This document shows positions 1-5,476 of a DNA stretch of 23,400 nucleotides, piece by piece. The number at the start of each line of letters is the position of its first letter. The first letter of the stretch is position 1. The stretch is taken from positions 1 through 23,400 of the IMG/VR virus record IMGVR_UViG_3300008262_000616. One strand, 5' to 3'. The notes under the pieces were generated by a model, which saw nothing but the letters and a program-made list of their open reading frames with translations, searched no databases and was not told where the DNA came from. The DNA comes from a virus. Made by a program: the position numbers and the translations under genes.

Positions 1-45
1 GTATCCTGCTGGCCGTCAGGTACTTATGGCGTTCTAATCGCCGTG

Positions 46-73
46 CACCAACCCCCTTCGGGGGGTATTGGTG
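46..73 (+). terminator. Strong hairpin with UUCG tetraloop, probable terminator
   Basis: ACCCCC (51-56) pairs perfectly with GGGGGT (61-66) around the extra-stable loop TTCG. A second segment, CACCA (46-50) with TGGTG (69-73), extends the stem past a two-base bulge. A T-rich but interrupted stretch follows. It stands out in an AT-rich genome and probably ends whatever transcript enters the window from the left. The lack of a clean T run leaves open an RNA-structure or processing role. Confidence 0.6.
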
Positions 74-152
74 TTGTTCTTCGGTCTTTAAATACGACTC
101 GATATATTAAGTTTATCGCTTAATTCAGTATTCACCTCTAAAACCTCAAACT

Positions 153-221
153 ATGGAGACATACATCATAGTAGACGGTGTTGTTACTATCCTCGAATGG
201 GTAGTAAACACCAACGCATAA
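153..221 (+). CDS. Possible 22-residue peptide
   Basis: A short reading frame starts at ATG 153 and encodes 22 residues, beginning METYIIVDGV and ending VVNTNA. The argument that it is translated is its leader: ACCTCTAAAAC at 134-144 is followed by ATG exactly 16 nt after the CC. The same element with the same spacing precedes the genes at 764, 1233, 1600 and 2094. The peptide is hydrophobic in its middle but too short for a confident membrane call. Its stop codon lies inside a 7-bp hairpin (214-231). No function can be assigned. It could instead be a chance frame inside the 5' part of the structured RNA that follows. Confidence 0.4.
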   Translation: METYIIVDGVVTILEWVVNTNA

Positions 222-745
222 CAATATGCGTGATAAGCATAGCTCTATAACTAGGGCTATGTTTACTTTAAATCCTATATACCATAGTTAACACAGGATA
301 TAGGCTCACTGTAAGCTATAAGTGAGATGCCATTCAATAGGGTAATTAGCAAGCCTATTATATACTCTCATCCAAGCAGGTACTATAGTTCTTTCCGCTA
401 CAGAGTCCCATTAGGGTAACTCATTAGAATATGGCAAAGATGTCAAGGGTTGCAACCTTGTGAGAGTACGTAAAGCGCTCCACCATGAGCTAAAAAGTGT
501 ATGTCTTATAGCCTGAGAAACTATTTGATGAAACAAAACCAGGGGAATAAGACTGAAGCAGTAGCAATACTGTTTGAATGAACAACCTGGAACATTGGTG
601 ATACCGTTATGCTTAACGGCCTGTACCTAATAGTTAATTGTGCTAGCTGCAAAGTTATAGACAAGACTATTAAAGCTGTATTCCTTACCTCAATTCGGAC
701 AATGCAGGTTACAATGGGTGTGTAGGTTAATCACACCCTTTTTTT
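204..745 (+). ncRNA. Candidate large structured non-coding RNA
   Basis: From 222 to 763 there is no credible protein gene, but there is a dense run of perfect helices: 214-220/225-231, 238-245/254-261, 274-280/298-304, 305-310/321-326, 336-341/354-359, 363-370/461-468 (8 bp closing a 90-nt domain), 403-409/414-422, 444-448/456-460, 503-509/547-553, 604-609/614-619 and 628-634/666-672. The hairpin 559-572 carries a GCAA (GNRA) tetraloop. CCAGG (539-543) can pair with CCTGG (586-590) across the 503-553 helix, giving pseudoknot topology. The region ends in an intrinsic terminator at 716-745. Size, complexity, phage context and a tRNA about 3.4 kb downstream recall the ornate large phage RNAs (GOLLD, ROOL), but I cannot match a consensus by eye. 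The 5' end is uncertain. Confidence 0.55.
716..745 (+). terminator. Rho-independent terminator
   Basis: GGGTGTG (716-722) pairs perfectly with CACACCC (732-738) around a 9-nt loop, followed directly by seven T residues (739-745). It closes the non-coding transcript. The next gene's leader element begins in the last base of the T run, so the gene at 764 is likely transcribed separately or by read-through. Confidence 0.88.
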
Positions 746-763
746 ACTTTTAAAACTAACAAC

Positions 764-1186
764 ATGAGAACAGATAAAATTGGTAGTGATTTCAATTACA
801 GAGCTTATCGTTTCAATAACTGCTTAGCATATGAGCAGTACGATGGTGAGAAGAGAATGCACACATACATAGTATTTACTGATATATCTTATAGACGTTT
901 CAAAGCAAGCAAAGGTTCATGGAAAAATGAACTAGAGCCTGTACGTAAAAGAAAATATGATAAGATACTATTCATGACTAATAAACAACTAATGGATATG
1001 ACTCATCCACTAGCTGATTATCATTTCATGAAAGATGTACGTGCTTTAGTATTCGATGCTAAATTAGGAACAAGATACGAAGCTACTAGACGATATAGTA
1101 CTAGTACAGGTTCTTATTTCTGGTGTCTATCCTCTGATACTACTGAAATCAAAAGTTATCCCAAGAAAAGGGTACGTCGAAGCTGA
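764..1186 (+). CDS. Hypothetical protein, 140 aa
   Basis: This is an open frame of 140 residues that I do not recognise. It is basic, with a C-terminal KKRVRR cluster, rich in Tyr and Arg, and shows no membrane span or signal peptide. The middle contains alternating hydrophobic stretches (residues 35-41, 67-72, 91-97) compatible with a small alpha/beta fold. The start is supported by the leader element TTTTAAAAC with ATG 16 nt after its AC, directly behind the terminator at 716-745. The next frame opens two bases after the stop, but its true start is probably 1233. Nothing in the context points to a specific role; it is an early/accessory phage gene. Confidence 0.75.
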   Translation: MRTDKIGSDFNYRAYRFNNCLAYEQYDGEKRMHTYIVFTDISYRRFKASKGSWKNELEPVRKRKYDKILFMTNKQLMDMTHPLADYHFMKDVRALVFDAKLGTRYEATRRYSTSTGSYFWCLSSDTTEIKSYPKKRVRRS

Positions 1187-3595: not shown

Positions 3596-3618
3596 TCTAA
3601 GGTTTAGTTTGTAAACAG

Positions 3619-3647
3619 GGGAGTATAGTTTCTATGCTCCCTTTTTT
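3619..3647 (+). terminator. Rho-independent terminator
   Basis: GGGAGTATAG (3619-3628) pairs with CTATGCTCCC (3632-3641), with one T-G wobble and a 3-nt loop, followed by six T residues. It ends the single-gene transcript of 3080-3595. Confidence 0.9.
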
Positions 3648-3667
3648 CTATTCTTAAAATACACGCC

Positions 3668-3934: not shown

Positions 3935-3936
3935 AC

Positions 3937-4132
3937 AGTAGGATAGTCAAGGTGTATTGGTTTACATCTTGACTGCACGTTTCGGTTCATCACCGAATAG
4001 TATGTCCAATATGATGAGAAGTAGGCTGATTACCTACATGGGACTTCTGATAGGGAAACGCTCTATTCGGTCTGACTAGCCGCGGGGAATATCAAAGAGA
4101 TGCAAAGAACAACGTGCTCTCACAGTCAATAT
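3937..4132 (+). ncRNA. Structured RNA segment upstream of the tRNA
   Basis: This 196-nt gene-free stretch contains a 12-bp hairpin (3945-3956 with 3963-3974, one wobble), a 6-bp hairpin TTCGGT/ACCGAA (3981-3986 with 3992-3997), a 5-bp hairpin GTAGG/CCTAC with 7-nt loop (4021-4025 with 4033-4037) and GAG..GCA/TGC..CTC (4097-4121). CCGAATAG (3993-4000) can also pair perfectly with CTATTCGG (4063-4070), which excludes the 3981-3997 hairpin. Two mutually exclusive folds are a feature of RNA switches. It could be a 5' leader processed off the tRNA, an independent small RNA, or a riboswitch-like element. No known class is recognised. Confidence 0.45.
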
Positions 4133-4218
4133 AGTCAGGTGGCGGAATGGTAGACGCTAATGGTCAAGTATGTGAATCTAACCGCATACTGTTACAGGTT
4201 CGAATCCTGTCCTGACTA
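4133..4218 (+). tRNA. tRNA with non-canonical anticodon arm, identity uncertain
   Basis: The acceptor stem is perfect (AGTCAGG 4133-4139 with CCTGACT 4211-4217, discriminator A 4218). The D arm GCG-GAATGGTAGA-CGC (4142-4157) has the Leu-type sequence with GG, and the T arm ACAGG-TTCGAAT-CCTGT (4194-4210) is canonical. No CCA is encoded. I scanned 4158-4193 for a 7-nt loop on a 5-bp stem and found none. The best helix is AGTATGTG/CGCATACT (4167-4174 with 4183-4190), whose 8-nt loop AATCTAAC contains CTA after a T. That would be an amber-type anticodon in an enlarged loop, with 9 nt before the arm and 3 after. An unpaired TCAAG at 4164-4168 would instead suggest Leu(CAA). The total of 86 nt fits a class II tRNA. 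It may be functional and odd, or degenerate. Confidence 0.75.
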
Positions 4219-4225
4219 CTAGACA

Positions 4226-4271: not shown

Positions 4272-4610
4272 ATGAATGAACAAAAATTAATGGCAGGTAT
4301 GTATGTAAGAATACCTAAAAGTGTTACTGACCACTCGCAGTTTGTAAGCAGAAAGAAAGAGTATTTAGTACTTGATGTAGAAAGACTAGCTAAGAATACA
4401 TACTTTCATATTGTCGAAGATAAAGGTAATATTGTACTATGCATTTTAGAAAACTGCTCTTTTCTTAATGGTGGTAGCTGGGAAATTATAGAATCTAAGA
4501 GAACTTTAATAAACATAGATAAAGTAGTTTCTAGCAAAGGATATCAAGCAGCATTATATTTCTTAGCAGGTATTGGTTTTGGTTATTTAATATTTGCTGC
4601 ATTATCATGA
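4272..4610 (+). CDS. Hypothetical protein, 112 aa, soluble domain plus C-terminal membrane helix
   Basis: The N-terminal ~80 residues (MNEQKLMAGMYVRIPKSV onward) have alternating beta-type segments (VRIP, YLVLDV, NIVLCIL, WEII) of the kind found in small SH3-like barrel domains. Residues about 93-111 (AALYFLAGIGFGYLIFAALS) form a single transmembrane helix at the very C terminus, so this looks like a tail-anchored membrane protein. The start is supported by the leader TTAATCCTTTAAAAC. It overlaps the next gene by four bases (ATGA, 4607-4610), so the two are probably translated together. No family is recognised. Confidence 0.75.
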   Translation: MNEQKLMAGMYVRIPKSVTDHSQFVSRKKEYLVLDVERLAKNTYFHIVEDKGNIVLCILENCSFLNGGSWEIIESKRTLINIDKVVSSKGYQAALYFLAGIGFGYLIFAALS

Positions 4611-5476
4611 AACCTACTTTAATAGAAAAAGTCAGTAGAAAGACTTTTAAAATTAGAGAATCAGGTAGATCTAGCGATTATATAAGCCCCTCATTTGGTT
4701 TTGGCTGCTTACTAGAATGTGGCTACTGCTACATGAAGCGTCATAAACCAAAGGGGCTTAGTGTTGCTAAGAATACAGGTGATATACTAACAGAGATTAA
4801 TAATCATGCATTCTTTTATGCTGATGTTCCTAAACCTAATCAAACAGATGAACATTTTATTACTTACGATATTGCATGCAATGAGGACTTTGCGCTCCAT
4901 GCCAAGTATCATGATTGGGAAAGAATATTTGAATTCTTTCGCACGCATCCTATTGCAAAAGCTACACTTGCGACTAAAATAATACCTATTGACTTTCTAA
5001 AATACAATCCTGAAGGTAAAGTAAGAATTAGGTTTAGTCTAATGCCACAAAAGATATCAAGTATATTGGAGCCTAATACTAGTTTAATCATCGATAGAAT
5101 CAAAGCTATTGATGCATTTATAGATGCAGGCTACGATGTGCATGTTAACTTTAGTCCTGTAGTAGTATATCCTGGTTATTTAAAAGATTACGAAGAATTG
5201 TTTGAGATGTTAGAAAACTACGTGGATTATAAAGAGCAAGTAAAAGCTGAAGTAATCTTCTTAACTCACAATAAATCTAAGCATATTTACAATCTGATAA
5301 ATAATGTACCAGGTGAAGATTTATTATGGACTTTTGACAACCAAGAGACTAAAAATTCACAGTACGGCGGAGAGAATATTAGATATCAACTAGGCTTAAA
5401 AGCTAAATATATCCAAGACTTCAAAACTTTACATGATTTTATAATCCCTTGGAATACAATTCGTTACATTTTTTAA
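4607..5476 (+). CDS. Radical SAM protein, spore photoproduct lyase family
   Basis: The 289-residue protein carries the radical-SAM cluster motif CxxxCxxC (C34, C38, C41 in GFGCLLECGYCYMKRH), which binds the [4Fe-4S] cluster that cleaves S-adenosylmethionine. The surrounding SPSFGFGC..CGYCY and the later RIRFSLMPQK and VHVNFSPVVV segments are typical of spore photoproduct lyase-like proteins, which reverse a thymine dimer in DNA. Bacterial SplB is about 340 aa, so this is a compact version. C91 (YDIACNEDF), 50 residues after the cluster, is a candidate for the hydrogen-donating cysteine of that family. Bacteroidota do not sporulate, so the phage enzyme may repair UV damage in phage DNA or act on another substrate. 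It is translationally coupled to the upstream membrane-anchored protein. Confidence 0.85.
   Translation: MKPTLIEKVSRKTFKIRESGRSSDYISPSFGFGCLLECGYCYMKRHKPKGLSVAKNTGDILTEINNHAFFYADVPKPNQTDEHFITYDIACNEDFALHAKYHDWERIFEFFRTHPIAKATLATKIIPIDFLKYNPEGKVRIRFSLMPQKISSILEPNTSLIIDRIKAIDAFIDAGYDVHVNFSPVVVYPGYLKDYEELFEMLENYVDYKEQVKAEVIFLTHNKSKHIYNLINNVPGEDLLWTFDNQETKNSQYGGENIRYQLGLKAKYIQDFKTLHDFIIPWNTIRYIF

Follow-up and report, generated by a model that had tools for sequence, protein, structure and literature searches.

A widespread family of phage RNA modules with a cloverleaf-like frame and apparently exchangeable cores

GOLLD and ROOL are single RNAs of about 600-800 nt that form a homo-oligomeric cage, and functional study of these and similar phage RNAs has resisted efforts for more than ten years. 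Integron attC sites consist of folded bottom-strand DNA with GTTRRRY/RYYYAAC boxes and variable tips. In GOLLD, a conserved 3' part is joined to a less conserved 5' part, with tRNAs sometimes found in the linker (PMC12286853). RNA anti-CRISPRs (Racrs) copy CRISPR repeats (PMC10651486), and in the engineered tRNA scaffold for RNA production in E. coli a stable tRNA body displays a foreign RNA where its anticodon arm would be (for example PMC3753655). The RNA modules described here share with GOLLD and ROOL that they are structured non-coding phage RNAs, but they are shorter (about 70-270 nt versus 600-800 nt) and their defining trait is the apparent exchange of a core inside a constant frame.

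The window, that is the whole stretch of DNA analysed (23.4 kb), is an incomplete IMG/VR viral record of an uncultivated phage. The region studied, 204-745, is bounded by a 22-codon ORF (153-221) on one side and a gene at 764 on the other, and all features of the row given below lie on the plus strand. The first-pass annotation had described it as one large, densely structured RNA of about 520 nt without a credible gene, akin to GOLLD or ROOL or else of a new class. Its structured, non-coding character was borne out: the predicted fold energy was -147.6 kcal/mol versus -127.6 ± 6.7 kcal/mol for dinucleotide shuffles, lower than in 100 of 100 of them (z -2.99). In 222-745 no stretch stays open for more than 71 codons, the median for shuffled sequence being 63, and the open frames were not preserved in the relative L003, hence no conserved reading frame runs through the region. 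Rfam models at gathering score gave no match in the window or in five relatives, and a search up to E = 10 on window positions 1-900 yielded nothing convincing, including no match to group I or II introns, HEARO or known ribozymes. The covariance-model search thus lent no support to kinship with GOLLD or ROOL, and the alternative of a new class is supported, with no Rfam match, no conserved reading frame and helices that covary across homologues (in frames A and B described below, and through compensatory changes against L003).

Relatives were gathered by protein searches from the genes beside the region, followed by DNA comparison. This revealed strongly conserved islands at 1-310 (including the micro-ORF), 359-382 and 443-473 with replaced sequence between them, and the latter two islands proved to be the two ends of one module, frame A. 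The single RNA of about 520 nt was not supported by this comparison, as frame A occurs alone, reordered or beside other modules in more than 100 contigs and the part 470-745 was seen in just one other, diverged contig. Such variation in module order and presence speaks against one RNA in the style of GOLLD or ROOL. The region is probably a row of separate RNA modules reaching from the micro-ORF to a terminator, a tandem of smaller structured RNAs, each moving independently. No sigma-70 promoter was found, which is not informative for a host that may use another consensus.

Frame A together with its core occupies 363-468. Its layout, TACTCTCA-T-CC[AAGCA]GG, core, CAAGG[RTTGCAA]CCTTG-TGAGAGTA, comprises a closing stem of 8 bp and two hairpins, one D-like with a 2-bp stem and the other T-like with 5 bp and a loop of 7 nt; the loops of these hairpins pair with each other. 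In the window the closing stem is formed by TACTCTCA (363-370) and TGAGAGTA (461-468), precisely the helix claimed at first reading, the D-like hairpin CC[AAGCA]GG lies at 372-380 and the T-like hairpin CAAGG[GTTGCAA]CCTTG at 444-460, stacked directly on the closing stem, while loop nucleotides GCA (376-378) pair with TGC (451-453). The 90-nt domain that this stem had been proposed to close is real and equals frame A plus an exchangeable core of 63 nt (381-443), but it is probably not a domain of a 520-nt RNA.

The pairings of frame A are supported by covariation in other phages. Sites were located by the D-like motif plus the loop of the T-like hairpin, without demanding pairing of the closing stem, and in 144 of 160 all seven inner positions of that stem were paired; six of the seven inner pairs vary, five of them with compensatory changes, and at the outermost pair 131 copies have T-A and 7 have A-T. 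Over 54 distinct spliced rows 96.9% of the cells were paired, and sliding the partners lowered pairing to 34-40%. Double changes were observed in 11 of the 18 pairs, a number reached by none of 500 shuffles (mean 3.0); the shuffles ignore relatedness, and the double changes nonetheless occur in many unrelated contexts. All helices of the frame have compensatory pairs: the T-like stem (three of five pairs doubly changed), the D-like stem (C-G replaced by G-U and by U-A), the closing stem and the contact between the loops. In the loop-loop helix, which has no unpaired cell, a C-G to U-A replacement appears in 5 of the 54 distinct rows, a change of G to A at position 4 of the T-like loop always being accompanied by C to U in the D-like loop (five rows); other co-varying combinations are D-loops of the AATA type with the T-loop TTAGAA, and TTGTA with TTACAG. 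Frame A was found by pattern plus pairing scans, its variable core making a poor covariance model. Wobble cells were G-U and almost never A-C (17 versus 1), which points to RNA of the plus strand and not to a DNA hairpin. Furthermore, both flanking ORFs lie on the strand of the module in 112 of the 117 copies that have two neighbours. Seven copies (L022, L027, L034, L039, L064, L070, L216) carry a variant 3' end that breaks the closing stem and forms a small hairpin, TGCTTATAG...ATAAGTATCC, instead. Judged by this pattern of covariation, 363-468 very probably belongs to a widespread and so far undescribed family of RNA modules in phages, with a cloverleaf-like frame.

The layout of frame A resembles that of tRNA and tmRNA in its four-way cloverleaf, its D-loop/T-loop pairing and its T-like hairpin on the closing stem, so that an elbow as in tRNA, with loop-loop pairing beside the stacked T hairpin, is present. 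In contrast to tRNA, the T-like loop is RTTGCAA (in nearly all copies) and not TTCRANY, the closing stem has 8 bp and the D stem 2 bp, the frame stem is followed by C plus any base and lacks CCA, and there is no anticodon arm, the place of which is taken by the core. At 363-468 neither an Rfam match to a tRNA or tmRNA model (up to E = 10) nor an ARAGORN call was obtained, a tmRNA model match with a tag reading frame was likewise not found, and the only tRNA in the window is a tRNA-Leu (4133-4219). Frame A is therefore like tRNA in fold and not a member of the family. The engineered tRNA scaffold is man-made and derived from tRNA, whereas frame A would be a natural and unrelated analogue; the comparison is one of analogy only.

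The exchangeable cores in this constant, covarying frame are the most remarkable feature of the locus, and one that is invisible from a single sequence. Core length ranges from 5 to 202 nt, and 134 copies fall into 60 clusters (57 in a second clustering) whose families are unrelated in sequence. We compared all pairs of copies by their 100-nt flanks and their cores, with a background identity of about 0.5. Both flanks exceeded 80% identity in 17 pairs, and in five of these, with flanks 86-99% identical, the cores were unrelated (0.36-0.51). The five pairs involve seven contigs (L080, L093 and L110; L052 and L097; L057 and L127) and thus represent three independent sites. A letter-by-letter reading shows near-identical flanks and frame, with the difference confined to the core and beginning exactly at the boundary. 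Cores more than 80% identical made up 267 pairs, 242 of them with both flanks at background. At the site 3' of the 22-codon ORF, in the group to which the window belongs, five unrelated cores are present across different phages. The core of the window has relatives in L017, L110, L112, L122 and L139, and in L110, L112 and L122, where it recurs, the match to the RNA row of the window is this module alone. Equal flanks with unrelated cores, together with equal cores in unrelated flanks, indicate that phages exchange folded cores within fixed scaffolds. From these alignments the cores are, in all likelihood, exchanged between phages precisely at the frame boundary. The apparent swaps could be metagenome-assembly joins of different phages at the conserved frame, but against this they are seen repeatedly, at three sites and in both frames.

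The cores fold as well, given that doubly changed pairs were observed in four core families (7 of 15, 5 of 25, 7 of 42 and 9 of 28). Within the family of the window's core the outer part is constant and the inner hairpin varies, which repeats the frame and core pattern at a second level. The core families have no motif in common, k-mers being shared no more than in shuffles, and a candidate suspected by eye (AGTATGGG...CCCTACTAAC) was discarded. Two cores, at L136 (start 9041) and L168 (start 10144), in frames A and B, include the genuine T-arm consensus of tRNA, GGTTCAAATCC, and were perhaps captured from tRNAs. No core was matched to any target. Like the modules, Racrs are short, solitary phage RNAs, viewed as counter-defence, that vary between phages; unlike in Racrs, which copy repeats, no common repeat-like motif was seen in the cores. 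The Rfam CRISPR models, the only repeat set compared, gave one chance-level match at 236-251, outside frame A.

Frame A was found in at least about 148 copies in about 135 stretches of viral DNA, with at least 120 rows in each of two viral-collection scans for the two short islands; 135 copies with both conserved ends were scanned. These scans looked for exact conserved words, so that divergent frames are counted too low and 148 is a floor; discovery by exact words also understates variation and could hide other frame types. The frame occurs mostly once per genome. Of 22 large records, all of them fragments, three have PolA, TerL and capsid proteins close to those of Crassvirales, with polymerases 45-77% identical to that of the window, which in turn is 41-42% identical to the polymerase of phage cr108_1; most of the remaining large records reach just 21-25% identity to crAss terminase (TerL). 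Frame A sits in module rows that run in the direction of the flanking genes, in phages related to Crassvirales and in more distant ones. It was absent from the 50,697 cultured or deposited phage records scanned, and its exact word was absent from 84,980 prokaryote genomes (GTDB). A similarity to crAss phage cr56_1 falls in a long gene on the opposite strand and was dismissed as chance. A search for a partner protein encoded close by gave no candidate: the commonest neighbouring family was near 44 of 135 copies, and no family was near half of them.

A second scaffold, frame B, with the layout TGCAC-CA-hairpin-CAGTTGTAAT, core, ATTACAACTG-A-GTGCA-GAGGG, was found in 153 fetched loci, where it often shares an ORF-less stretch with frame A; it is absent from 204-745 of the window. 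In frame B 98.3% of cells were paired, with 105 double-changed cells versus 31.8 in shuffles, and with 20 G-U versus 6 A-C cells. A candidate pseudoknot CCC/GGG fits 97.6% of cells with no compensatory change and thus stays a proposal. Among 73 copies the cores form 56 clusters, and three pairs of copies have both flanks in common and unrelated cores; no core common to frames A and B was detected by BLAST. By comparison of these copies, frame B behaves like frame A, with cores seemingly swapped within a constant scaffold. Frame B precedes frame A in L006/L042 and L120 and follows it in L009, L010 and L012, and frame A also occurs without frame B. Cultured phages gave only chance-level matches to frame B. 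The frame B word at L220 57-82 (RFNS01000086.1) lies on a 4.6-kb contig of a Lake Lanier MAG binned as an alphaproteobacterium, which is probably mis-binned phage DNA.

Other recurrent modules are C, E, F and G. Module C (L078, L087 and L003; for example L087 2914-2968), ACCACAAGGTTTCAGG...CTCTCATCCTGTAAAGCAG...GACTTGTGGT, resembles the 5' part of frame A. Module F (L010 4620-4775 and L087 3645-3820), GGGAGCATGTGACCATGAAAG...CCAACACTATTT, is about 160-190 nt long, well conserved and has no Rfam match. At L087 1380-3310 a 1.9-kb ORF-poor island contains two copies of frame A, frame C, frame B and several further hairpins, with no Rfam match up to E = 1.

The row of the window begins with the micro-ORF (153-221, METYIIVDGVVTILEWVVNTNA before the stop), which 13 non-identical loci retain, most of the changes being synonymous or conservative, and which could encode a leader peptide or a tiny phage protein. 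Its stop codon falls within hairpin 1 (214-231; ACGCATA 214-220 / TATGCGT 225-231), which is present in 10 of 10 relatives and invariant and therefore gives no covariation evidence. Hairpin 2 (234-265; 14 bp, TAAGCATAGCTCTA/TAGGGCTATGTTTA) has one compensatory and one G-U variant pair among 10 relatives, and 204-265 folds with a z of -6.2. Module G (274-304), with the stem CCTATAT/ATATAGG capped by the conserved CATAGTTAACACAG (283-296), occurs in 12 copies, some of them in phages without flanking similarity, and is followed by a hairpin CTCACT/AGTGAG (305-326) from fold prediction.

Beyond frame A lies module H (470-715), about 250 nt with several putative helices and a relative in L003/L050 only (80-84% identical); with just two sequences its structure is not provable. 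Compensatory pairs are 479/488, 510/522, 540/589 and 559/572, and a fifth, 629/671, was noted by reading the alignment. The GNRA-capped hairpin reported earlier at 559-572 (CAGTA-GCAA-TACTG) is present and has one compensatory change in L003. Of the proposed H-type pseudoknot, the helix 539-543/586-590 is present, with a compensatory change in L003, while its partner 503-509/547-553, paired at 7 of 7 positions in the window, has two pairs broken in L003 and was rejected; a local hairpin 508-511/520-523 with one compensatory change suits both sequences better. The row ends at 716-745 with the predicted intrinsic terminator, GGGTGTG (716-722) and CACACCC (732-738) followed by U7, which is preserved in L003. 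Elsewhere in the window, 1915-2070 is ORF-poor with strong inverted repeats (AAGCTTACC...GGTAAGCTT and more) and is possibly a further RNA module; 3600-3660 and 3935-4132, around the tRNA-Leu gene, are ORF-poor with possible hairpins; and 4607-5476 encodes a radical-SAM protein of the spore photoproduct lyase family (PF20903), unusual for a phage.

A constant frame with a replaced core would be expected if the partner of the frame is constant and that of the core changes fast. We propose that the row would be transcribed together with the neighbouring, probably early, genes, and that the compact frame may protect or deliver the RNA, much as the engineered tRNA scaffold guards an insert in its anticodon arm. 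The constant partner of the frame could be folding, stability, processing or a host protein. The working part would be the core, with a trans-acting role directed at a partner that keeps diversifying, for instance a component of host defence or a competing phage, and the identical ends of the frame (17 and 24 nt) could provide the homology for core swapping. We regard this explanation as a whole, swapped cores in a frame working as trans-acting RNA, as evenly balanced between true and false; on sequence comparison the odds are likewise even that frame A and its core make up an accessory RNA acting in trans. That host defence or competition would be the target of the core is a tentative suggestion, somewhat on the unlikely side.

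The main rival is a role in cis in the early mRNA, in which the modules would be leader, attenuator, processing or stability parts that tune the flanking genes. Such a role would account for nearly all copies lying on the strand of the flanking genes, for a conserved 22-codon ORF that ends within the first hairpin and for the terminator that closes the row. A cis regulator is, however, expected to track its gene, whereas the core is replaced wholesale while the flanking genes stay, and frame A, mostly single-copy, stands beside many different genes; we consider a cis role unlikely. The case for one large ornate RNA of about 520 nt, with the frames as domains and some of these variable, is improbable: it would be in keeping with a head-to-tail arrangement of the modules in a single ORF-less stretch that ends in one terminator, with the usual single frame A of a genome and with the overall z of -2.99, but the order and membership of frames A and B vary, frame A occurs without frame B and module H is present in one other contig only.

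An element acting at the level of DNA, for which exchange would be the purpose, should likewise show precise swaps between conserved ends; it could be a small mobile element or a recombination site that folds as integron attC does. Indeed, attC sites share with frame A complementary conserved ends, a variable tip and a tie to exchange. They are, however, folded DNA; frame A, as read, has no GTTRRRY/RYYYAAC boxes and forms no cassette array, usually being single-copy in a genome. Moreover, the ratios of G-U to A-C cells (17 to 1 in frame A and 20 to 6 in frame B), the fixed orientation to genes and the conserved folds of the cores oppose a DNA element, which is very improbable. Least to be expected are decayed or divergent tRNA or tmRNA genes. 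The cloverleaf layout with its elbow contact and the T-arm consensus GGTTCAAATCC in L136 and L168 recall such genes, but the frame is under strong constraint, the cores are mostly unlike anticodon arms and no call was obtained in the loci scanned, bar one doubtful call elsewhere. Cores as decayed tRNAs were rejected, since the T-arm consensus is found in two cores only.

Returning to the proposed trans-acting reading, environmental crAss-like and related phages might share a natural RNA display system of at least two constant frames, tRNA-elbow-like or pseudoknotted, with functionally different cores swapped across lineages, a possibility that we hold just short of evenly balanced. If true, such a system would be to RNA what exchangeable cassettes of anti-defence genes are to proteins. 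The open-access literature searched does not describe a family of this kind, and neither the frame nor the exchange of plug-in RNA cores was matched there or in Rfam; in more cautious wording, the modules may be a new family within the known structured RNAs of phages. With one frame carrying about 57-60 cores, and one core present in different genomic settings, nature has performed a domain-swap experiment, which makes the scaffold separable from the working part and each directly testable. The L087 island is a rich place for studying the system, and the frame could be usable as an RNA scaffold. Regardless of function, at least two RNA families missing from Rfam and present in more than 100 viral contigs merit models. 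If the cores act against hosts or rivals, the arms race of phages would have an RNA arm, equipped with an exchange system of its own.
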